A stretch of DNA of 64,000 nt from Paucibacter sp. TC2R-5 (lineage in GTDB: Bacteria; Pseudomonadota; Gammaproteobacteria; Burkholderiales; Burkholderiaceae_C): positions 310,001 through 374,000 of the forward strand of contig NZ_JAJIRQ010000003.1 of NCBI RefSeq assembly GCF_025717605.1, written 5' to 3'. Under the pieces are notes generated by a model. The model had not been told where the DNA came from. It did no database searches and worked only from the letters and a program-made list of their open reading frames with translations. This document shows positions 19,590-40,093 of this stretch, one piece after another (within the stretch, counting starts at the first letter, position 1; each line of letters opens with the position of its first letter). The position numbers and the translations under genes are program-made.

Positions 19590-20468
19590 ATGTTGGTGAG
19601 CCAGCTGAAGGCGTTTTTCACCGTTGCGCGCCTGGGCAGCGTGACGCTGGCGGCCAAGCACCTTGGCTTGAGCCAGCCCACGGTCACCACACAAATTCGC
19701 GCGCTGGAAGAGCATTACGGCGTCGAGCTGTTCCGCCGCGAGGGCGGCCGGCTCTTGATCAGCGATGCCGGCGTGCTCTTGATGCCGCGCGTCGATCAGC
19801 TCTTGCAGCAAGAAATCGACCTGGAGTTTGCGCTGCGCAATGCCGGCGAGTTGCAGCGCGGCAGCCTGCGCATCGGCGCCACCGCGCCCTATTACGTGCT
19901 GAGCATCGTGCAGCGCTACCGCCAGCGCTTCCCGCAGGTCGAGATCACCTTGGCGGCCGGCAATTCGCGCCAGATGATCGATGCGCTGCAAGAGTACCGG
20001 GTCGACATCGCTACTTCGTCTCATCTGGAAGACGACCCGCGCCTGCACCGCCTCGAACTCGGCGCCGACCCGCTGGCCCTGGTCGCGCACCGCGACCATC
20101 CGCTCGCGCGACTCGCCCAGGTGCGGCTGAGCGCCTTGGCTGGCTGCCATCTCTTGATGCGCGAGCGCGGCTCGATGACGCGCCAGCTGACCGAGCAAAT
20201 GCTCGCACGAGCCAAAGTACAGCCGCTCAGCTGCATGGAGATTGCTAGCCGTGAGGCCTTGCGCGAGGCGGTGATCCGGCAAATGGGTGTCAGCATCTTT
20301 GCCGCCAACGAAGTCTGTGAACACCCGGATCTGCGCGTCATCCCCCTGACCGGCATGGCCAATGACGAGGCGGCGCCGCTGGTGCGCGAATACCTGTATT
20401 GCCTGAAGGACCGGCGGGATTCACGTTTGATTGACAGCTTTTTGCTGGCATGCCGGCACAAGGACTGA
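19590..20468 (+). CDS. LysR-type regulator of aminoethylphosphonate catabolism
   Basis: A LysR-family regulator (292 aa). The N-terminal winged helix (residues 1-60) contains AAKHLGLSQPTVTTQI, the recognition helix. The C-terminal periplasmic-binding-like co-inducer domain follows. It resembles the TIGR03339 group found beside phosphonate importers. Divergent placement next to the phosphonate operon argues that it controls that operon and itself through the dyads at 19510-19532. The inducer is probably 2-aminoethylphosphonate or phosphonoacetaldehyde, which is an inference. Confidence 0.9.
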   Translation: MLVSQLKAFFTVARLGSVTLAAKHLGLSQPTVTTQIRALEEHYGVELFRREGGRLLISDAGVLLMPRVDQLLQQEIDLEFALRNAGELQRGSLRIGATAPYYVLSIVQRYRQRFPQVEITLAAGNSRQMIDALQEYRVDIATSSHLEDDPRLHRLELGADPLALVAHRDHPLARLAQVRLSALAGCHLLMRERGSMTRQLTEQMLARAKVQPLSCMEIASREALREAVIRQMGVSIFAANEVCEHPDLRVIPLTGMANDEAAPLVREYLYCLKDRRDSRLIDSFLLACRHKD

Positions 20469-29272: not shown

Positions 29273-30094
29273 ATGCCCAATGCAACTCAGCCGACATCGC
29301 GGCGCCTCGGCCCGTGCGCAAGGGTTCAGCACTGTTTGGCGCTACTTTGCCTGAGCCTGCTTGCCCAGCCGCTGCCGGCGGCCGCCCAAGCGCAGCCGCA
29401 AACCCCAGCCGCCGCCGCTCAATTGGCGGCGCCCGCTGTTGGACCACCACTGCGCATCTTGCTCAATGATGTGGCGCCCTACACCCTGCATGGCGAGGTG
29501 AGCCGGCCCGGCATGCATCATGAAATCATGCTGGCCCTGGCACGCGAAGCGGCGCTGCCGGTGGCACTCGGCTCGGCCGTCTATGTGCGCCTGGCCATGG
29601 GCTTGAAGGATGGCAGTGCCGATCTGGTGGTCGGCGTTGAAGGACCCGAGCTGGAAGAACTGGCGCAACGGGTCACACCCTTTCACGTCTTCAAGTTCGT
29701 CGTGCTGACGAAGAAGGCGTCCGACATCCGTAGCGTCGCCCAGCTCAAAGGCAAGCTCTTGGGTGTGGCCCGCGGTGCCTTCTATGATGACGCCATCAAC
29801 AAGGACGACGCCATCCGCAAGTTCGGCGTCGCCGATCCTTTTCAAGGCGTGCGCATGCTGGCTCTGGACCGGCTCGACGCGGTGATCTCGTCCGACTACC
29901 TGCTCAGTTATGCCTTGAAGCAAAGCGGCGTTGACCTGAACCAGTTCAACAGCCCATTCACCGTCAACGAAAAGAGTTACGTCTTGTACGCCCGCCGGGA
30001 GCTTGGCGCCGAGACGGTGCGGCGGCTGCAGCGCGCGATGGAGTCGCTGCAAAAGTCCGGCCAGATCGAGCGGATTTTGCGCAGCTATCAGTGA
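29273..30094 (+). CDS. Orphan periplasmic solute-binding protein, SBP_bac_3 family
   Basis: A periplasmic protein of 273 aa with a long signal peptide (about 1-39, ending AAAQA) and a low-complexity Ala/Pro/Gln linker. A class II bilobed binding domain like amino-acid ABC binding proteins follows, with GMHHEIMLALAREAALPV and LKGKLLGVARGAFYD as fold landmarks. No permease or ATPase gene is nearby, so it may work with a remote transporter or as a sensor partner for the adjacent chemoreceptor. The start lacks a strong Shine-Dalgarno. The ligand is unknown. Confidence 0.82.
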   Translation: MPNATQPTSRRLGPCARVQHCLALLCLSLLAQPLPAAAQAQPQTPAAAAQLAAPAVGPPLRILLNDVAPYTLHGEVSRPGMHHEIMLALAREAALPVALGSAVYVRLAMGLKDGSADLVVGVEGPELEELAQRVTPFHVFKFVVLTKKASDIRSVAQLKGKLLGVARGAFYDDAINKDDAIRKFGVADPFQGVRMLALDRLDAVISSDYLLSYALKQSGVDLNQFNSPFTVNEKSYVLYARRELGAETVRRLQRAMESLQKSGQIERILRSYQ

Positions 30095-30515: not shown

Positions 30516-32819
30516 ATGCCTCGCTACTGTTTTGATCATTGCGTCATTGACACCCTCAAGCACAGCTTGTCCGTTCAGGGTCAGCCTGCCGAAGTACAGC
30601 CCTTGATTTTTGATCTTTTGCTGTTTTTCGCGCGCAATCCACAACGCATGCTCAACAAGGATGAACTGCTCGATGCGGTCTGGAAAACCAGCTTTGTCAC
30701 CGATTCGGTGGTGGCTAGGGCGGTGATGAAGGCACGCCGTGTGCTTCAAGCTGCAGGCAGCTCGGAAGACATCATCAAGACTGTGCGTGGTGTCGGCTAC
30801 CGTTTCGATGCAAGTGTTGAGTTGCGCCAGGACTCAGGGAAGGAAGCGGCATCCGGGACCAGTCCGACTATCTCTCCCGCAGCATCGCCCCCTAAGCCGG
30901 CCACTTTGACGCTTATCGGCGTCATGCATCCCAAAGGCAGCCGCCCCACCCTTGCCGTGCTGCCTTTTGTCAACCAAGCCGGCGATCCGCAGTTTGACTG
31001 GGCAGAGCGCGGCTTGGCGGGCCTGGTTCATCACCAGCTGGAGGCAAAAGGCAAGATTGCAGTCGCCAGCATGAATGCCACCAGCGACTGGCGCAGCCAT
31101 TTTGCCTGGGGGGCCGAGGCCCTGAGCCATGCCTGTCAGCAACTTGGCACCGAGAAGGCCTTGCTCTGTCGGTTTTCCCGTTCAGACCAAAACGTCTACG
31201 CGCTGGAGTCCCTGTACGGAAGCGCGGAGCGTGACCTGGAAAGCCGCCTTTTTGAGGGTGGCGACCTGTTGGCGCTAGCTGCCGCCATGGTGGGCTATCT
31301 GGAGGCGCAATTCGACCCCGCCCAAGTGCCGGAGCCTTTGTACTGGGAGGAGCAGTTGGCGCGGGCCTTGGACTTTGAATTGCGGGGTGACCTGGTTTCA
31401 GCCTTACCGTTGCTGGAGTCTTGCATGCAGCGGCTAGATGTCACGCCTAGCATTCACTTGGTTCACGCGCGCCTGTTGAGGGAGCAGTCTGCAGCGATGG
31501 ATCAGGCTCGTGTAGCCGCCTATGCGGCTTTGGAGGGAGCGCGGGCCGCCGATAAGCATGATTTGCAAGTTGATGTTTATGCAGAGTTGTCGCGCATCGA
31601 CATCAACTCGGGGGACTTGCCGTCTGCAGCTAGGCAATGTGAGCTGGGCCTAGCGCTGGTGTTTTCCGGGCAGGCCAGCGTCGGGGTTTTGGCGAATATT
31701 TTGATTGCGCGCGCCGATTTGGAGCGCTTTCAGGGGCAGTCGGAAGTGGCTGCCAAGACGGTAGCGCGTGCCGTCGAAGCAGCCAAGGCGGCTGGCGATG
31801 TCTACCGTGAGCTATTGGCCTCTTGCCTGTATGGTCATGTCTTGATGGGCATTCCCTTGATGCCCAAGGCGATTGACACCTTGCGCAATGTGGTCAGAGA
31901 AGCGCGCCTGCGGGGATTGGTCCGCGTTGAGCTGCAAGCCTATATGTCGCTCGGGACCGCCTTGAGTGTGATGCGTCAGTATGGCGAAGCGGTGGAGGCC
32001 ATTCGAAGGGCTGCATTGCTCGCCACTAGCCTGGGCTACCAGGGAAAATATCTGGGGTCAAAAATCCAGGAGACCTTTATCTTGATTGACGCAGGGCGCT
32101 TGGTCGAGGCGGAGTCATCTACGCATGATTGCATCCGGCTGATGGGTGGGGATGTGCCGATCTACTTATCGTCTGCACATGGCCGTGCGCACGCGCATCT
32201 GCAATGGCGTGCGGGACTTCTTGAGCAAGCTGTGCAGCAGCAAGAGCAAATGCTCGACTTGGCCCGGAAATGGGGCTGGTACACCCGTTGGCTTTGTGCT
32301 GCCTTGCTGTGCAGCTGGTACATCACGATCGGCCGCGAGGCCGATGCGCAAACCGCGCTTGAGGTATTGAAGGACGACAACAATCTCGCGCGGCGCAGCC
32401 GCAGCGAGGCTGCTCTGCTGCTGCACCAGTCCCGCCGAGAGGAAGCCAAGGCCTGCCTGCGCATGGCTTGGTCCACAAGCTCCAGCGAAAGCGCAGCCGG
32501 GCAGGATTTGGCTGTCGATTTGGGCTGGATGTTGCTGGAGGATGGTCAGGGCAAGGAGCTGGAATTCCTGATGCGCTCGGTCACCAAGATGAGCGCAGAG
32601 CACGCGCCCACGGCCTTGCTGCAAAGCGTCTACGCCTGGAAGGCAATGTATGCCGGCGAGGCGCAGCAAGATTGGCTGCAGAAATGGCAAGCCTTGCTGC
32701 AGCAAGTGCCGGCACTGGTGCGCAACGTCCCGGCTTTGATCGGCGAGGGCGGCCTGCTCGGGCTGCTGCGTGGGGAACAGCCGGCATTTCACTTGCTACT
32801 CAATAACGCTTGTGACTGA
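30516..32819 (+). CDS. One-component regulator: OmpR/CadC-type winged helix fused to TPR array
   Basis: A cytoplasmic protein of 767 aa. Residues 1-100 form a Trans_reg_C winged helix (LLLFFARNPQRMLNKDELLDAVW, then the C-terminal hairpin IIKTVRGVGYRF). A Ser/Pro linker is followed by a TolB/FlgO-like stretch (TLAVLPFVNQAGDPQFDW, about 145-250). Residues about 270-740 are alpha-helical TPR-like repeats. There is no membrane helix, unlike CadC. Such proteins bind DNA and probably sense peptides or partner proteins through the TPR solenoid. The Shine-Dalgarno spacing (about 13 nt) is long, but no other in-frame start exists before an upstream stop. The target is unknown; it converges on the 33-40 kb gene row. 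Confidence 0.8.
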   Translation: MPRYCFDHCVIDTLKHSLSVQGQPAEVQPLIFDLLLFFARNPQRMLNKDELLDAVWKTSFVTDSVVARAVMKARRVLQAAGSSEDIIKTVRGVGYRFDASVELRQDSGKEAASGTSPTISPAASPPKPATLTLIGVMHPKGSRPTLAVLPFVNQAGDPQFDWAERGLAGLVHHQLEAKGKIAVASMNATSDWRSHFAWGAEALSHACQQLGTEKALLCRFSRSDQNVYALESLYGSAERDLESRLFEGGDLLALAAAMVGYLEAQFDPAQVPEPLYWEEQLARALDFELRGDLVSALPLLESCMQRLDVTPSIHLVHARLLREQSAAMDQARVAAYAALEGARAADKHDLQVDVYAELSRIDINSGDLPSAARQCELGLALVFSGQASVGVLANILIARADLERFQGQSEVAAKTVARAVEAAKAAGDVYRELLASCLYGHVLMGIPLMPKAIDTLRNVVREARLRGLVRVELQAYMSLGTALSVMRQYGEAVEAIRRAALLATSLGYQGKYLGSKIQETFILIDAGRLVEAESSTHDCIRLMGGDVPIYLSSAHGRAHAHLQWRAGLLEQAVQQQEQMLDLARKWGWYTRWLCAALLCSWYITIGREADAQTALEVLKDDNNLARRSRSEAALLLHQSRREEAKACLRMAWSTSSSESAAGQDLAVDLGWMLLEDGQGKELEFLMRSVTKMSAEHAPTALLQSVYAWKAMYAGEAQQDWLQKWQALLQQVPALVRNVPALIGEGGLLGLLRGEQPAFHLLLNNACD

Positions 32820-32866: not shown

Positions 32867-34708
32867 TCAGCGGCTTGCTTGGCCGGTGCTCAGCCTAGTG
32901 CTGAAGCCGTTGGCGTCGAGCGGGCGATCCAGCAGATAACCTTGCACCGCATCGCTTCCTACTTGGCGCAGTGCCTCCAGCTCACCCGCTGTTTCCACAC
33001 CCTCGGCAACGGTTTTCATCTGAAACGCATGGGCCACTTCAACAATGGCCTTGACCAATTGCCTGGCGCTGGGATCTTGCTCCATACGGCGAACAAAGCT
33101 CCGATCGATTTTAAGTTTGTCACAGTTGATGCGGTGGAGGTAGCTGAGCGAGCTGTAGCCAGTGCCAAAGTCATCCAGCGACAGGCAATAGCCCAGGCTT
33201 TTGAGCCGATTGATGATGGAGTCTTCGGCCTCTATTTCCTCGAAGGCCGCGCGCTCAGTCAGTTCGATTTCCAAGGCTTCGGGCCCAAGCTCCAAGTCGC
33301 GCAGACGCTGGATAAAAGTGTCTTTCGATTGCTCACGCAAGAACTGCAAGGAGCTCAGATTGATGGCGATGGGCGGCACCTTGAGGCCACGACTAAGCCA
33401 TTCAAGGCGATTCTTGTGAACCAGGCCGAGTACTTGCAGGCCGATTTCTTCGATCAAGCCTGCGCTTTCTGCGATCGGGATGAATCGCTCCGGCGAGATC
33501 ATGCCGCGTGTGGGGTGGTGCCAGCGAAGCAAGGCTTCGGCGCCGCACAAAGACTGGTCGTGTATCGAATAGATAGGCTGGTAATGCAGGTGAAACTCTG
33601 CCTTGGCCAAGGCCTGCCGCAAAGCCTCGGCAAGTTCGGCGCGTTCGCGCATTTCCCTGTCATGGGCTTGCGCATAGCGCGAGAAACCACCATGCCCAGC
33701 CAATCGGGCCGCGCTCAAGGCTGCGCTGGCGGCCCGGATCGCACTGTCTTCATCTGCGCCATCGACCGGCAGCAACGCCATGCCAATACAGGCCGTAGGC
33801 CTCAAGGCAATGTTGCCAATGAAGATGGGCTCTCTCAGTACCGCCTGGATTTTTCTGCTGAAGTTGGCGAAGCCTGGTTCATCACCCTGCGTCAGGGACA
33901 AGGCAAATTCGTCGGCACTGAGTCGAGCCAAGCAGTCTGCTGAGCCCAGCAAGTGCTGCAGGCGCTGTGCGATCACGCGCAAGATGACGTCGCCTTGTTG
34001 CGCGCCGTAGGCAGCGTTGATGACGCCAAAGTCATCCAGGTCAATCAGATACAGAGCGGACATGCCCTCAGCCCTGCGCTGAAGCTCGCGCAAATGTGCC
34101 CGCAGCTCCTCGCGATTGGCGCAGCCGGTCAATGGGTCATGCCGGGACATCCAGGCCAGACTTTGTTGGGCCTGTCGGGCCGTCTTGGCCGCTCGCTTGG
34201 CCGAGAACCAGGATGCCAACCAGGCGCCAAAAATGGCCAAGCACCCGACGCCGAGAAAGACTGCGGTCCAGATGAGCAACTTTTGTGAAGAGCCGGTCAA
34301 GATCAAATTCCCAACGGGCTTGCCAAAGGCCAGCACTGGGCGCGAGACTTTCAGCAGCACCAGGCTATGACTCCAATGAGTCGACCCCCCGGCGTAAACG
34401 GCCAGTAGCCGCCCATCCAGGCTTTCAAGTCGAGCTTGTCGCAGATTGCTGGAGGTAGCCAATGCGGTCAGCAATTCATGCGCTTCGGTGTCGTTCTCGA
34501 TCACGATGGCATAGCTGGTGTTCTGCGCGATCAATTCTGCCGACGAGCCCAAGTCCGCCAGTATGCTGGCTCTGAGCCCGTGATATTGCACCAAGCCCAG
34601 CAGCATCAGCATGCCAAAGAGGGCCAGCACCAGCCCTGCAAGCTCTCTGCTTGGCGCGGAATGCAAGTTTGAACTGAGTCCGTTTCGGTTCGTAGTGGTG
34701 TGGGTCAT
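32867..34708 (-). CDS. Membrane GGDEF-EAL protein with CHASE8-like periplasmic sensor (probable c-di-GMP phosphodiesterase)
   Basis: A protein of 613 aa. Helix 1 (about 24-45), a periplasmic domain of about 100 residues (SAELIAQNTSYAIVIENDTEA, ARLESLDGRLLAVY) and helix 2 (about 145-168) give the CHASE8/YfiN-like sensor layout. The GGDEF domain is degenerate: LSADEF replaces GGDEF, and no I-site is seen. The EAL domain keeps CGAEALLRW, ELTERA, LDDFGTGYSSLSYL and EGVE, so hydrolysis of cyclic-di-GMP is expected. It is last in the co-directional row with two PstS-like proteins, two porins and a chemoreceptor, which may feed it periplasmic input. Confidence 0.88.
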   Translation of the reverse strand: MTHTTTNRNGLSSNLHSAPSRELAGLVLALFGMLMLLGLVQYHGLRASILADLGSSAELIAQNTSYAIVIENDTEAHELLTALATSSNLRQARLESLDGRLLAVYAGGSTHWSHSLVLLKVSRPVLAFGKPVGNLILTGSSQKLLIWTAVFLGVGCLAIFGAWLASWFSAKRAAKTARQAQQSLAWMSRHDPLTGCANREELRAHLRELQRRAEGMSALYLIDLDDFGVINAAYGAQQGDVILRVIAQRLQHLLGSADCLARLSADEFALSLTQGDEPGFANFSRKIQAVLREPIFIGNIALRPTACIGMALLPVDGADEDSAIRAASAALSAARLAGHGGFSRYAQAHDREMRERAELAEALRQALAKAEFHLHYQPIYSIHDQSLCGAEALLRWHHPTRGMISPERFIPIAESAGLIEEIGLQVLGLVHKNRLEWLSRGLKVPPIAINLSSLQFLREQSKDTFIQRLRDLELGPEALEIELTERAAFEEIEAEDSIINRLKSLGYCLSLDDFGTGYSSLSYLHRINCDKLKIDRSFVRRMEQDPSARQLVKAIVEVAHAFQMKTVAEGVETAGELEALRQVGSDAVQGYLLDRPLDANGFSTRLSTGQASR

Positions 34709-34775
34709 GAATAGCATTTGCTCGAGCAGGGGTGCAGAAGAGCGCCCAGGGGCAATCTCCGGGGTGTGGCGAAAC

Positions 34776-35201
34776 TCAAGGGAAGACTTGCTTCAGAGAG
34801 GCGTCCAAGTCTTGCCGCCGGATATAGGCAATTGCTTGTGCGTCCTCTCTCAAGCGAGCTTTCAGGCTATCAAGCGAGGCGCATTTCAGCGGCGGTTTGG
34901 CCTTGCCGGTGAACACCATGGCTGCCCAATGTGAGCGCAGTTTGTGTTCGGACATGCCGGTCATCTCGTCGTGAAAGCTCAGGCGAAGTTCGTCCTCGCC
35001 CTTCAGCTCAATCGGCCTGATGTCGCCGCTGCCTGGTAGGCTTTCCACGCGCCCCAGAAAGACGTTGCTGATGTCATGCGAACTCAGTTTGGTACGGGTG
35101 CTTTGCTGCCCGACCACGACCACAAAACTTGTGGGCTGAGCCTGGACCGTGCAGCTCATCCAAACACAGACAACAGAGACAAGCAGGTGAAGGCGTTTCA
35201 T
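34776..35201 (-). CDS. Short periplasmic PstS-like protein, copy 1
   Basis: A 141-aa protein with a signal peptide (cleavage near VQAQP, residue 22). The mature part resembles the first lobe of phosphate-binding (PBP-like) proteins but is under half their usual length. It is clearly paralogous to the protein at 36618-37052: both share a KLSSHD/KLDADA helix, xxFLGR/LYLGK, LPGxG, the HWAAMVFTGKAKPP/YWARMIFTGKGQPP block, a YIxxxxxDAS segment and a short C-terminus. It lies 2 bp after a porin gene, so the pair is co-translated. A regulator-like periplasmic role is inferred from the CHASE8 neighbour. Confidence 0.8.
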   Translation of the reverse strand: MKRLHLLVSVVCVWMSCTVQAQPTSFVVVVGQQSTRTKLSSHDISNVFLGRVESLPGSGDIRPIELKGEDELRLSFHDEMTGMSEHKLRSHWAAMVFTGKAKPPLKCASLDSLKARLREDAQAIAYIRRQDLDASLKQVFP

Positions 35202-35203
35202 GG

Positions 35204-36553
35204 TCAGTACGCGAAGTCCATGCTGAGGTTGTAGACATGGATGGCCGGGCTGCTGCTCAGATTGCGGCCCACAAGGCCGACACGGTTCAAGGAGCTCACG
35301 CCATTGCCCTGGCCCAGTGGCCTCATGCGGTCGATCTGTGCCTTGAACGCAAGTCCGGGCATCGCGTCCCAGCGTAGACCCAGGCTTTGGCTGTCTTGTT
35401 CGGGCCCTTCGGAGCCGGCCGGTCGGTAGACCTTCAAATTGGGCTTGACCAGGGTTTCATACTCAGGCTTGACTGCGGCCTCGAAGGTTTTGCTCCCCGC
35501 CCGGTGCCAAGACCAAGTGATGTAGGGCGTCAGTTGCTCAAAGCTTCGGGCCAGGGTGATGTAAGCGGCGCGGCTGTTGGCAACGCGCGAATGATGGTGC
35601 AGCCAGATGGCCTCGCTGCTTAAACGCCAAGGGCCTCGTTCATAGCTCACGCCGGCGCTGCTAAAACGAAAGAGGGCCTGATTGACGTCGTATCCTTGTT
35701 CCAGTTCCGCAAAACCGGTGTACAGGCCGCGGCAGAGCAGGGGCGTGCGCGCGCTATTGGCCTTGGACATGCAGGCCAGCTGGCTATCGCCAAATATGCT
35801 GAGGCCCCGTTCGGGCAGGCCTTGGGTGGTGATAAAAGTCTGGCGCGCACGCATATGCGCCAGACGCAAGCCCAGCCCGTCTCTTTGCAGGCTGAGATTC
35901 AGGCCCAACATCTTGTCATACTCAACCGCTTGATTGGTGAGCCCGACCGCGCCTTTGCGCGGGAACTGCTGTCGGCTGCTACCGCCCCAGATTTGTGTCA
36001 AAAAAGCATTACCGGCCCAAGCCTGGCGCCAGATCAGATCAGCGCCGTCGACCCCGTTCAGCGCCAAGGTGTATACGTCCACGGGCGGCCGGACCCATAA
36101 GTTGGCATAGCCCACCAGGCGGGTGTCCGAGGCCGCAAACAAGGGCGCGACAAAGCGCCCGGCGCGCAGGTTGAGTCCGGCACTGGGCTGGTAGCTGAGG
36201 TAGGCCCAGTCAATATCGGGCCGATAGTTGTTCTGGTCATCCCGCCTGGCGGTCAGTTGCAGGGTAGCCGTGGCGCTGGGCAGGAAGTTGTAACGGGCCT
36301 GCACGGCCAGCATGGAGTCAAGACCGCTGGTCCAAGCGCTTTTAGCACCGGAGGGCTGGTTGCCGAAGGGCAGAAAAGTAGCCCCCCCGCTGTCGACCCG
36401 GACCATGGACAGGGTCCCAAAGGTCGCCAAGGAGAAGGCGGCATTACTGTCCTCGACGTCGGCAAGCGCAGCGCCGCCCAATAAGCAGGCCGAGGCCACC
36501 AGCAAGGGCTTTCTCAGTCCGTTCAAGGTAGTGATGATTGCCAAGAGGCTCAT
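35204..36553 (-). CDS. Outer-membrane porin-like protein, copy 1
   Basis: A beta-barrel type protein of 449 aa from the ATG at 36553; a GTG at 36589 would add 12 residues, and neither has a strong Shine-Dalgarno. The signal peptide ends near ALADV. Alternating hydrophobic strands and a C-terminal aromatic (YNLSMDFAY) suit outer-membrane insertion. It is paralogous to the porin at 37067-38410, sharing IDWAYLxYxP, RAGRFVAP and the block VGYANxWVRPPxDVY...VDGxD. It sits between the two PstS-like genes with gaps of 2 bp (downstream) and about 64 bp (upstream). The substrate is unknown. Confidence 0.82.
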   Translation of the reverse strand: MSLLAIITTLNGLRKPLLVASACLLGGAALADVEDSNAAFSLATFGTLSMVRVDSGGATFLPFGNQPSGAKSAWTSGLDSMLAVQARYNFLPSATATLQLTARRDDQNNYRPDIDWAYLSYQPSAGLNLRAGRFVAPLFAASDTRLVGYANLWVRPPVDVYTLALNGVDGADLIWRQAWAGNAFLTQIWGGSSRQQFPRKGAVGLTNQAVEYDKMLGLNLSLQRDGLGLRLAHMRARQTFITTQGLPERGLSIFGDSQLACMSKANSARTPLLCRGLYTGFAELEQGYDVNQALFRFSSAGVSYERGPWRLSSEAIWLHHHSRVANSRAAYITLARSFEQLTPYITWSWHRAGSKTFEAAVKPEYETLVKPNLKVYRPAGSEGPEQDSQSLGLRWDAMPGLAFKAQIDRMRPLGQGNGVSSLNRVGLVGRNLSSSPAIHVYNLSMDFAY

Positions 36554-36617
36554 GGTGTCGGAATATCGGCCAAAGATGTTGGGCGGCACCGTTCAGGCGC
36601 CGCCTCGGGTTACGCCC

Positions 36618-37052
36618 TTACAGAGCCAGCAATACCTTGACGCTGGCGTCAACGGCCGATTTCTCGATGTAGCCAACGGCCGAAGGGTTGGCCGCCACGG
36701 CCTTCTTCACCGCGGCGGCACTGTCCATCGCGCGGGGCGGCTGGCCCTTGCCGGTGAAGATCATGCGGGCCCAATAGGCCTTCAGCGCACTGGCGTCTTT
36801 CTTGGTGACGTCTTGATAGAAGCTGTCCCGGGTGGTGCTGCCTTCGGGCAGATCCAAGACAGCGACGGAGCCAACACCCGGCAGGTCGGTACTCTTGCCG
36901 AGATAGAGGTTGCCTACAGCATCAGCATCTAGTTTATTGATGCTGCTCTTGGCATTGGCGACAAGCACCCAGTCTGCAGCCAAAGAGATCGATGGCAAGC
37001 ATGACAGCAGGGCGAGCGTCAGGGCGGCAGTAGTTTTGTTAAAGCTGAACAT
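36618..37052 (-). CDS. Short periplasmic PstS-like protein, copy 2
   Basis: A 144-aa paralogue of the protein at 34776-35201, with a signal peptide ending SLAAD (about residue 26). It carries the same one-lobe PBP-like pattern (NLYLGKSTDLPGVGSV, YWARMIFTGKGQPP, VGYIEKSAVDASVKV). It follows the second porin by 14 bp. The conserved FTGKxxPP loop and the absence of a second lobe suggest that it binds a partner protein or a small anion and does not feed a transporter; no pst genes are nearby. Confidence 0.82.
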   Translation of the reverse strand: MFSFNKTTAALTLALLSCLPSISLAADWVLVANAKSSINKLDADAVGNLYLGKSTDLPGVGSVAVLDLPEGSTTRDSFYQDVTKKDASALKAYWARMIFTGKGQPPRAMDSAAAVKKAVAANPSAVGYIEKSAVDASVKVLLAL

Positions 37053-37066
37053 GTTGATGGCGCTCC

Positions 37067-38410
37067 TCAGAAGACGAAGTCAAGCGCCACGGTCGCCAAC
37101 TTGACGGAGCCGACGGAAGTAGACATAGGTGTGGCGAGCACGCCGTTCACCCGGCTCATGGTTTGCGCATCGGTGGCACCGAAGCTGTTGGTGTTTGGCG
37201 TGTAGCGGTCAAGCTGGAACTTCAAGGCGACCGAAGCCGCGACGTCGACGCGCAAGCCCAGGGACAAGGTGTTGTTGTCCGTATTCGAGGTTTGCACATA
37301 GGGCGCGCCATTGGTGAACTTGCCTGCAATCGCGGCGCTAGGCGTCAAGGTGAGCCGGCGGGTATCCGTCTTGCTGCCCGAGTAAGTCACATAAGGCAGC
37401 AGCTTGCCGATGCGGTAGCCAGCAGTCACGTAGTAGGCGTCGGAATCCGAAAGCGCGGAGTCAGACTTGCGCATCATGTACTCGGCTTGCACAACGACTT
37501 TGCCGTTGTCGTAGGCCAGGCCCAGGTCGGTGATGTTGAAAGGCTTGTGGTCGCGGCGCACGGCGCTGAAAACATCATCAAAGCTCGCGAACAGGGCGCT
37601 GCAGCCTGCGTTGGCTTGTAGGCCAGCATTGCAAGTGGCGCCGGCCGGGTTGAGTCGGAAGCCACGGCCGGTGCTGGGCTCGCTGACTGCAAACAGCGTG
37701 GAAGGGGCTACTTGGCCGTCGGCCTGATAGTTGGTGTGCCGCGCGTCCATGTGGCTGGCGCGGAAGGTCCAGCTGCCCAGTTCAGCGGTCAGGTTCAGCC
37801 CGCCCATGCGGTTGAACTTGATGCCCGAGCCGCCTGCAAACTTCAGGTCATAAGTGCCGAAGTAGGCTTGCGCGCTGTATGAAAACGGGCCCAGTTCACC
37901 GCGGTAGATGGCATCAAGGCCGTCGACATTGTTGATGGTCGCTGAGTTGTATACATCGGTGGGTGGGCGCACCCAGATATTGGCGTAGCCCACATTGCGA
38001 TAGTCCGAACCCATCAGCACCGGAGCGACAAAGCGGCCGGCACGAACCGTCAAGGTACTCATCGGCTTATAGGCCAGGTAAGCCCAGTCGATCGAAGGCT
38101 TAAAGCTGTTTTCTTCATTGCGGCGCGACAGCAGTTGCACGACGGCCTGCAATTTTTCGGTAGGGCGGTAGCTGAGTTGAACACCGAGCTTGCTGTCGTT
38201 GTCGAATTCATGGCTGTTCGCCGTGCCGCTGGGCAAGCGGTTGTCGGAGCGGAACTGAATGTTGGCGTTGTCGGTTTGGACGGCAGACAAGGTGCCAAAG
38301 CCTGACAGCACAAGCGTTTTGCTTTCGTTGGAAATCTCGGCATGGACGGTGGCCGAGCAGGCAATGGCGGCAGCCAAAGCTGTCAGATTACGACGGTGAA
38401 AAAACTTCAT
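37067..38410 (-). CDS. Outer-membrane porin-like protein, copy 2
   Basis: A 447-aa beta-barrel candidate with a clear signal peptide (to VHAEI, about residue 25) and a C-terminal Phe in VALDFVF, the recognition end for outer-membrane assembly. It aligns through most of its length with the porin at 35204-36553 (IDWAYLAYKP, RAGRFVAPVLMGSD, VGYANIWVRPPTDVY, NNVDGLD). It is the gene after the chemoreceptor, at a distance of 156 bp. The porin/PstS-like pair has been duplicated in tandem. The pore substrate cannot be read from sequence. Confidence 0.83.
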   Translation of the reverse strand: MKFFHRRNLTALAAAIACSATVHAEISNESKTLVLSGFGTLSAVQTDNANIQFRSDNRLPSGTANSHEFDNDSKLGVQLSYRPTEKLQAVVQLLSRRNEENSFKPSIDWAYLAYKPMSTLTVRAGRFVAPVLMGSDYRNVGYANIWVRPPTDVYNSATINNVDGLDAIYRGELGPFSYSAQAYFGTYDLKFAGGSGIKFNRMGGLNLTAELGSWTFRASHMDARHTNYQADGQVAPSTLFAVSEPSTGRGFRLNPAGATCNAGLQANAGCSALFASFDDVFSAVRRDHKPFNITDLGLAYDNGKVVVQAEYMMRKSDSALSDSDAYYVTAGYRIGKLLPYVTYSGSKTDTRRLTLTPSAAIAGKFTNGAPYVQTSNTDNNTLSLGLRVDVAASVALKFQLDRYTPNTNSFGATDAQTMSRVNGVLATPMSTSVGSVKLATVALDFVF

Positions 38411-38566
38411 TGAATGGACTTTCTAGGCGGGAGGAAATTTGCATGCGCCGACTTGCCCACCATGCAAATAGGCGACGACACGCTCTGCCCGACTTCTGGT
38501 GAAGGGCAGCGCAGCTGTTGGATTGGGTTTGCCAGAGATCGCAGAGCTGCGGTCTGGCGGTGAGGG

Positions 38567-40093
38567 CTAGGAGGGCTCGTTGCCCGTCTGGAATCGTTGG
38601 GTCAGTGCCGCCAGCCTTTGCGTTTGTTGCTCCAGGCTTGCGGCTGCTGCGGCTGCTTGCTCAACCAGGGCACTGTTTTGCCGGGTGCTGTCATCAATGC
38701 CTGAAATGGCGGTTCCAGCCTCAGTGATGCGCTCGGCTTGTTCGTTACTGGCCTGGGCAATCTCGGTGATCAAGGTGGCCACTGAACTGACCGATTGCAC
38801 AGCGCTTTGCATCGTGCTGCCGGCCAAATTCACTTTGGCTGTGCCGTGTGAGACATGTTGCGCCGAGGCATCAATCAAACCAGCAATTTCTTTGGCAGCC
38901 TCGGCGGCCCGGTGAGCCAGGCGGCGCACTTCTCCGGCGACCACTGCGAAGCCCCGGCCATGCTCGCCGGCGCGCGCCGCTTCGATCGACGCGTTCAGCG
39001 CGAGGATATTGGTCTGGAATGCGATGCCGTCGATGACGCCGGTTATCTCGGAAATCTTTTTGGATGATTCGGTGATCTGCTGCATCGAAACGATGGCTTC
39101 CCGAACCGCCTCACCGCCACGCTCCGCTTCCTCGCAGGCATTTGCAGCATTCCGGGTGGCTTGTCTGGCGTTGGCCGCGTTGTGCCGCACCGAGTCGGTC
39201 AGTAGTTGCATGGTCTGGGTGGTCACTTCGACCGCACTTGCTTGAGCTTCGGTTCGTTTGGAGAGGTCCAGATTACCGGCGGCAATCTCGCGCGCCGCGT
39301 AGGCAATTTCGCCGGCGCCGTCGCGGACTTGATCGACCATATCGCGAAGGCTATAGGACATGACGCAGATAGCACTCAACAAGTCGTTGCCTGATTCGCC
39401 TTTGCCTTCGATGTGGCGGGACAAATCACCCTCGGCTATTTCCTGCATGACATCACGAACCTCGGCAGGTTCCGCACCAAGCTGACCCCAGACGCTGGAG
39501 ATGATCCGCCAAGAGGCGAACATCAGGGCGGTCAGCACAAATGCTGCGCTGATGAGGGTGACTTTGCTGACCGACTGCACGCCTTGTTGACTACCGATCA
39601 GCATCTGGTCAAAGGCTTCCTGTGCCAGTTGGGTTTCTTGCTCCAAAGCCGTTCGCAGGGCCTTGAGGCTCGTCTGCATGCGCGGCACAGCGCTAGCTGC
39701 TTCGCCATCGGCCTTACCGAGCAGGATCAAAGCGGTGTTGTTCGCATCGCGGGCATATGCGTTGCTTGCCAGCAAGAGACTCTGAGCCGCATCCGCGCGA
39801 CCAGTTACCCGGGAGATGCGCTCCAGGTTCTGATTCATGCCTTGCGTCAAGCGGCCCGCGTCTTCGAGCCGCTTCGGTTCGGTCTCGCTGACCGCCGCTT
39901 GAAACGCGACCGAAATAGGGTCCAACAATGCCAGCGCCTGAGTTGCGGCAGTCAGATGCGGATAGGCATCTCTGCCCATCTTGTTGATGGTTTCAGACGT
40001 CTTGTGGGAGACGGTCAGAATGATGCCGATGCTGATTGCAAAGATGAGGGCCGCTATCGCCGGCAAGGCCCATATCCGTTGTTTGATTCCCAT
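38567..40093 (-). CDS. Methyl-accepting chemotaxis protein with four-helix-bundle sensor
   Basis: A chemoreceptor of 508 aa. Helix 1 is at about 9-28, followed by a periplasmic helical domain of about 145 residues (4HB/Tar-like), helix 2 at about 175-197, HAMP, and a signalling domain with the tip [19 protein letters not shown]. No CheB/CheR-binding pentapeptide is present at the C-terminus (NEPS end). It is first in the row of porin and PstS-like genes on the same strand. A link between chemotactic sensing and those periplasmic proteins is an inference from order. Confidence 0.92.

Follow-up and report, generated by a model that had tools for sequence, protein, structure and literature searches.

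Doubled VpvAB-type units between a chemoreceptor and a CHASE8-GGDEF-EAL protein in Paucibacter sp. TC2R-5

The window analyzed here, a stretch of 64,000 nucleotides from Paucibacter sp. TC2R-5 (contig NZ_JAJIRQ010000003.1, positions 310,001 to 374,000), carries a row of six minus-strand genes that encode a chemoreceptor, a porin and a short PstS-like periplasmic protein, a second porin and a second PstS-like protein, and a CHASE8-GGDEF-EAL protein. By layout, the two porin/PstS-like pairs are VpvAB units, likened to VpvAB of Vibrio cholerae through the published description. The row is a variant of VpvABC, with a real and well-supported signaling arrangement, and not the new YfiBNR-like circuit proposed in a preliminary description of the sequence. 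It probably consists of two VpvAB sensing units in tandem that are connected to two outputs, the chemoreceptor and the CHASE8 enzyme. The most useful new piece is a sensor domain of the chemoreceptor that travels with VpvAB.

In V. cholerae, VpvABC consists of the porin VpvA, the periplasmic binding protein VpvB, and the membrane diguanylate cyclase VpvC, and it acts in rugose biofilm formation. According to PMC12456836, its signal is unknown, and the proposal is that VpvA imports this signal, which is then sensed by VpvB and VpvC. The same paper reports vpvAB without vpvC in many genera, including Roseateles, and suggests a conserved sensing unit that was later tied to VpvC. The row in the window resembles VpvABC as outlined in PMC12456836 and PMC8754643 in that a porin and a small periplasmic protein stand in an operon with a membrane cyclic-di-GMP enzyme. 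However, in the window the pair is doubled, a chemoreceptor stands at the head of the row, and the enzyme combines a degenerate GGDEF with an EAL domain and would be expected to break down cyclic-di-GMP rather than to synthesize it. Locus L271 (group f61/g282) has the arrangement vpvA-vpvB-GGDEF (412 aa) with Trp237, close to W240 of VpvC (PMC8967002), and we infer that it is probably a Vibrio VpvABC. A search of plasmid records with L271 for a named Vibrio VpvC gave no match.

The layout of the row had been described correctly: all six genes are present in the claimed order, and the pair occurs twice with paralogy in both halves. RAGRFVAP and WVRPPxDVY are found in both porins, whose identity is 32.4% across 414 aligned residues; both small proteins contain FTGKxxPP, and their identity is 32.1% across 112 aligned residues. 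Porin 1 was modeled as a beta-barrel (mean predicted local distance difference test score [pLDDT] 82.8) whose Foldseek matches were to general porins as well as to the phosphate porins OprP and OprO. The likeness to YfiBNR fared less well. In Pseudomonas, YfiBNR (TpbB) joins a CHASE8 cyclic-di-GMP protein to a small periplasmic component and an outer-membrane one, and the window enzyme shares the CHASE8 periplasmic domain (PF17152, above cut-off). However, Pfam searches at an E value of 1 detected no YfiR family in the small proteins, and the fold of VpvB1 is PstS-like in its model. Furthermore, neither porin contains an OmpA-like (YfiB lipoprotein) family, porin 1 models as a porin barrel, and the GGDEF domain looks inactive while an EAL domain is present. 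Membership of the row in YfiBNR was rejected on this domain content, and VpvABC is the closest known system.

The small proteins resemble half of a PstS, as had been claimed. The model of VpvB1 (mean pLDDT 90.2, from an alignment of 63 family members) matched PstS chains in Foldseek with a query template modeling (TM) score of approximately 0.6 but a target TM of 0.35–0.39 (twelve best matches); VpvB1 so modeled is one lobe of the PstS fold. The VpvB profile aligns with a central stretch of PstS chains that starts at the IFLGK segment and ends at IGY. Compared with PstS/PBP_like_2 (PF12849, TIGR02136), VpvB shares the fold of one lobe and the sequence from LGK to IGY but is half-size (141–144 aa) and not two-lobed, and no Pfam family was found in VpvB1 or VpvB2 at E 1; TIGR02136 gave a partial match to VpvB1 at 4e-6, far under its cut-off. 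Relatives of the small protein are encoded in at least 508 of at least 593 candidate stretches of the genome collection. Judged by sequence, VpvB is a family of its own: F78, W94, F99, G101, and P106 show little or no variation among 113 members, and because these residues are kept, the small proteins are not decay products of PstS, an explanation that the preliminary description had set against its own. In the genome of the window, PF12849 found two long PstS-like proteins above cut-off elsewhere, and there are six VpvB-like matches. Two are in the row; the others precede a second chemoreceptor (L012), precede a protein resembling the SpoIIE-bearing one of L078 (L013), adjoin a kinase-like gene (L014), or lie inside a longer reading frame (L015).

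What VpvB might bind is a separate matter. At the position of the PstS phosphate arginine, the 113 family members have glutamine in 50, leucine in 49, and arginine in only 3, and the threonine of the lobe-2 SGT segment is retained in 10; both aligned positions are phosphate contacts in PstS. Because these positions are lost, phosphate sensing is weakened, and so is the periplasmic anion earlier suggested as ligand. VpvB is probably a signaling adaptor rather than a phosphate carrier. It is very improbable that the pair serves nutrient uptake or acts as a phosphate module and that its signaling neighbors are incidental. A PstS-like fold and the presence of OprP and OprO among the porin matches would suit such a module, but it is opposed by the loss of the phosphate ligand positions, by the recurrent sensor domains and partner-sorted VpvA and VpvB trees presented below, and by the lack of any transporter gene in the six-gene row. 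The last point agrees with the earlier remark that pst transport genes are absent, and the row looks like envelope-to-cytoplasm signaling rather than uptake, as that remark implied.

More plausible, and in our estimate not far short of an even chance, is that VpvB acts as an ordinary periplasmic carrier, which would bind a molecule admitted by VpvA and dock on the receptor only in the ligand-bound form. This would fit the solute-binding-protein (SBP) fold of VpvB1, the import proposal quoted above from PMC12456836, and the precedent of Pseudomonas aeruginosa, where PstS binds the chemoreceptor CtpL in phosphate chemotaxis (PMC4926252). It fits poorly with the replaced arginine, and since VpvB is one-lobed, the usual two-lobe cleft is missing. 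PstS-CtpL and the window row both associate a PstS-fold periplasmic protein with a chemoreceptor that it feeds or, in the window, would feed. VpvB differs from PstS in its single lobe, its lack of the phosphate-binding arginine, its pairing with a porin, and the absence of an adjacent ABC transporter. By analogy, PstS-CtpL serves as a working precedent and not as a family to which the row belongs.

The chemoreceptors encoded beside VpvAB have in common a periplasmic domain of approximately 150 residues. With E values up to 1 allowed, any one Pfam family matched 4 of 47 members at most. A first profile, built solely from receptors downstream of vpvAB, found the domain of the window chemoreceptor at 1.6e-31 and also recovered 10 of 10 non-identical domains of upstream-linked receptors at 2e-41 to 1e-7 (a domain could be extracted from 12 of 15 such receptors, 10 of them non-identical). 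Alignment A6, of which the window stretch is itself a row, found the window domain at 5.3e-36. Among 14 receptors labeled "other," five matched the profile, all beside vpvAB: three had a partner gene missed by the gene caller or profile, and two were on the opposite strand. The remaining nine were unmatched (E ≥ 0.33); one of these, L102, adjoins VpvB on the opposite strand. The domain is not confined to chemoreceptors: a hybrid histidine kinase encoded next to VpvAB has it as well (L117, E 1.8e-21).

The linkage of this domain to VpvAB is also evident in whole genomes. Across 18 genomes of the genus, 16 copies were present among 485 methyl-accepting chemotaxis proteins (MCPs), and 15 of the 16 lie within 3 kb of VpvB; the sixteenth ends at a contig start and fits as the missing neighbor of a vpvA at a contig end (L047). 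Fifteen of the 18 genomes encode 25–40 chemoreceptors each. Genus members G311, G314, and G316 have 0–1 chemoreceptors and no VpvB match, and G315 has 25 chemoreceptors and no VpvB match. In 18 gammaproteobacterial genomes (481 MCPs), 19 of 21 copies were within 3 kb of VpvB. These genomes had been picked for having VpvB, and an unselected sample of the phylum (398 genomes) was therefore searched. It contained 33 copies in 29 genomes and gave a lower proportion, with 25 of the 33 within 3 kb of VpvB (23 on the same strand and 2 on the opposite). VpvB was present in 27 of the 29 genomes with the sensor domain versus 64 of the 398 overall. Some of the phylum copies sit in open frames of 757–1234 aa and may not be chemoreceptors. 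Alignments A6 (the chemoreceptor sensor) and A7 include rows from several of the tested genomes, and thus the genome searches test specificity more than recall.

Neighborhoods of VpvB were compared in three sets of loci. The first set held 105 order-level loci, comprising the window, 4 loci from its own genome, and 100 outside regions; the last were picked from profile matches, those with better VpvB1 scores first. Forty phylum regions were likewise picked from profile matches, giving a phylum set of 40 loci, so that class proportions lean to the VpvB1 lineage. A named set of 80 contigs overlaps the first set. Because the gene caller lost overlapping frames, leaving first 2 and then 3 loci without VpvB in two reads, counts were taken from domain hits. 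VpvB has VpvA as its same-strand neighbor in 104 of 113 cases in the first set, 37 of 42 in the phylum set, and 84 of 86 in the named set. A same-strand signaling domain lies within 1.5 kb of 74/113 VpvB genes (68/105 loci) in the first set and of 25/42 genes (25/40 loci) in the phylum set. The partner classes are chemoreceptors, histidine kinases, GGDEF proteins, GGDEF-EAL proteins, and SpoIIE phosphatases, examples of which were confirmed by Pfam. A vpvAB-adjacent MCP of the named set had no sensor-domain match, and two more without the domain are on the opposite strand. Two apparent partner neighbors proved to be HSP90 and were set aside (L107 by Pfam, L113/L189 by reading the sequence).

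Several individual arrangements were also recorded. In L013, L077–L079, and L129, VpvAB is followed by a protein of approximately 850 aa of the HAMP-SpoIIE-HATPase type (Pfam on L078), and in L013 and L077–L079 a gene of approximately 1270 aa precedes the SpoIIE-type protein (an AAA-ATPase/BTAD regulator in L078). The two genes of the pair may stand in either order, since vpvB precedes vpvA in L074, L136, L240, L241, L247, L250, and L274, with a GGDEF gene between them in L136. Named Vibrio and Photobacterium plasmid records carry VpvB-family members, and an Alteromonas plasmid (L154) carries vpvB-vpvA close to csf genes of type IV CRISPR (clustered regularly interspaced short palindromic repeats).

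Both proteins of the pair sort by partner. Mapped on the VpvB tree, the partner sensor requires 4 changes versus a shuffled mean of 20.3, and on the VpvA tree 3 changes versus 16.5; VpvB groups were labeled by locus, and one second VpvB, of L140, wrongly carries a sensor-2 label. In 62 chemoreceptor-linked loci, VpvB distances track those of the sensor domain with a partial r of 0.42 given the MCP signaling domain, whereas the signaling domain retains a correlation of 0.08 with VpvB after correction for the sensor domain.

At the other end of the row, the enzyme matched EAL (3.2e-70), GGDEF (2.6e-26), and CHASE8 (8.6e-7, above cut-off) in Pfam. Its GGDEF motif reads SADEF, as it does in the related loci L047, L048, and L087, and all seven EAL motif segments searched, which make up the active site, are present in the window enzyme and in these three loci. 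The earlier characterization as a phosphodiesterase with a dead GGDEF is supported as far as a degenerate GGDEF and an intact-looking EAL go, and the enzyme is expected to break down cyclic-di-GMP. A second sensor domain, of approximately 115 residues, is common to GGDEF, GGDEF-EAL, and kinase proteins adjacent to VpvAB, the VpvC-like protein of L271 among them. It is distantly CHASE8-like, as PF17152 matched 5 of its 14 members (lowest E 0.0023). In 19 chosen genomes, the profile of this second class gave 17 strong matches (E < 1e-10), 16 of which are within 3 kb of VpvB; two of the 16 (in G313 and G129) are absent from the profile, and three further matches were weak. In L114, vpvB-vpvA adjoins a Cache-adenylate/guanylate cyclase, and a nearby CHASE8-GGDEF-EAL gene has an intact GGDEF motif.

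The gene neighborhood recurs in related loci, a point on which the preliminary description had staked its case. The same six genes are present in L048 (= L156), a metagenome-assembled genome (MAG) labeled Rubrivivax; in L047 (= L155), a MAG labeled uncultured Roseateles, both units and the enzyme are kept and the row is truncated by the end of the contig; and L087 (= L157), from Roseateles asaccharophilus, has the chemoreceptor, a single vpvAB unit, and the enzyme. Porin 1 shares 84% identity with its counterpart in L156. A chemoreceptor followed by two units is found in L107 and L214 as well, and in L207 (Cellvibrio) with a gene between the units. Given the gene order and the strong difference between VpvB1 and VpvB2, the row could consist of two complete modules, with porin 1 and VpvB1 serving the chemoreceptor and porin 2 and VpvB2 the CHASE8 enzyme. 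A FastTree tree agreed with this division by grouping VpvB2 with second-sensor-linked VpvBs. However, placement of VpvB2 in the cyclic-di-GMP-linked lineage was not kept by a mixture-model tree and was dropped: in approximately unbiased (AU) tests, for which groups were defined after the trees had been inspected, neither a grouping with second-sensor-linked VpvBs (p 0.174) nor one with VpvB1 was rejected (p 0.109; with L132, 0.233). Moreover, porin 2 is nearer to porin 1 than to the sensor-2 clade in the VpvA tree, and R. asaccharophilus has its single pair between both outputs. Such a division of labor is rather unlikely.

It is less likely still that the second pair is a decaying duplicate and the first alone works. 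The branch to VpvB2 and its two orthologues is very long (2.15 changes per column in the mixture-model tree), and R. asaccharophilus manages without a second pair. Against decay stand the open frames kept in the window, L047, and L048, the 69% identity of porin 2 with its nearest orthologue (402 columns), and the doubled units of L107, L207, and L214.

For the favored arrangement, two tandem units feeding two outputs, a compound would enter via the porin or be detected at it, and VpvB would relay this porin-dependent cue across the periplasm to two docking sites, the chemoreceptor's periplasmic domain and the CHASE8 domain of the enzyme. Chemotaxis signaling and cyclic-di-GMP breakdown would then shift together, and we propose that one cue would therefore bias swimming and favor the motile state. 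We infer the docking, the ligand, the direction of control, and the enzyme's activity from the observed genes, domains, and linkage.

Several points weigh against this arrangement. The tie of the window CHASE8 domain to the second sensor class is weak and uncertain: at E 0.001, the class-2 profile found nothing for the window-type operon in G000 (the window's genome), G310, and G487; within the window family, it listed only L047/L155, at 0.013; and hhalign of the window CHASE8 against the profile gave a probability of 75% and an E value of 2.5e-5, at the detection limit. The 156-bp gap between the MCP and porin 1 genes could hold a promoter; a count of sigma-70-like sites in that region (0 versus a shuffle mean of 1.6) decides nothing. 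VpvB2 has diverged so far that it may be on the way to losing its function. No same-strand signaling domain lies within 1.5 kb of 39/113 VpvB genes in the first set and 17/42 in the phylum set. Of the 33 sensor-domain copies in the unselected phylum sample, 8 lack a VpvB match (E up to 1e-10) in the 3 kb around them, and 2 of 29 sensor-domain genomes have no VpvB at all; VpvAB is thus not the sole company of this domain. Finally, relatedness of the organisms confounds both the sorting of the trees by partner and the distance correlations.

A broader view, which we regard as speculative and unlikely, is that VpvAB is a general plug-in input in Pseudomonadota, with VpvB reporting porin state and the window driving both outputs from one input. 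A small number of recurring docking domains in the periplasm would link the porin and half-SBP adaptor to chemoreceptors, to histidine kinases, to SpoIIE-type phosphatases, and to enzymes that make or degrade cyclic-di-GMP, and VpvB would sense porin occupancy or gating rather than a soluble ligand.

Table 1. Features of the six-gene row and the convergent regulator gene (positions within the window).
Feature	Coordinates	Strand	Evidence
Chemoreceptor (508-aa methyl-accepting chemotaxis protein), heading the row	38567..40093	-	MCPsignal PF00015 E 4.8e-47
Chemoreceptor periplasmic sensor domain (~147 aa), VpvAB-linked family	39572..40012	-	Profile searches
VpvA-type porin 1 (447 aa)	37067..38410	-	Predicted beta-barrel, Foldseek porin matches
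VpvB-type one-lobe PstS-like periplasmic protein 1 (144 aa)	36618..37052	-	Model and PstS matches
VpvA-type porin 2	35204..36589	-	Paralogue of porin 1
VpvB-type protein 2 (141 aa), strongly diverged	34776..35201	-	Paralogue of VpvB1
CHASE8-GGDEF-EAL protein (616 aa), predicted cyclic-di-GMP phosphodiesterase	32867..34717	-	Pfam, EAL motif segments
CHASE8 region and membrane helices (residues 32-180)	34178..34624	-	PF17152 E 8.6e-7
Degenerate GGDEF motif, reads SADEF	33905..33919	-	Sequence
EAL signature, phosphodiesterase domain	33530..33538	-	Sequence
CadC-like winged-helix/TPR regulator (767 aa), convergent with row	30516..32819	+	Trans_reg_C 5.9e-17

From the MCP gene to the GGDEF-EAL gene, the intergenic gaps are 156, 14, 28, 2, and 58 bp (Table 1). 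The listed start of porin 2 is a GTG; by inspection, an internal ATG at 36553 precedes a signal-like stretch and may be the true start. The CadC-like regulator has a homologue at the same place in L047, L048, and L087 (44–65% identical to that of the window) and may control the row. Near it, a family-3 solute-binding-like protein is encoded at 29273–30094 (SBP_bac_3 match below cut-off). Farther away, at 19875–20222 within a 315-aa frame, a PF12849 match below threshold marks a possible phosphate-binding-like protein.

VpvAB was already known as a little-studied envelope sensing unit; what appears new is the association with chemoreceptors and the logic by which partners share recurrent sensor domains. 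A literature search limited to open papers found no report of VpvAB with chemoreceptors or of such partner logic. If VpvAB also feeds chemoreceptors with the recurrent sensor domain, the search for its ligand would become a simple swimming assay in harmless environmental strains, and the sensor domains provide a handle for finding VpvAB partners from sequence. The doubled operon is, in turn, a place to study how a single envelope input may control both chemotaxis and cyclic-di-GMP, and it suggests that one envelope signal steers swimming and surface life together.

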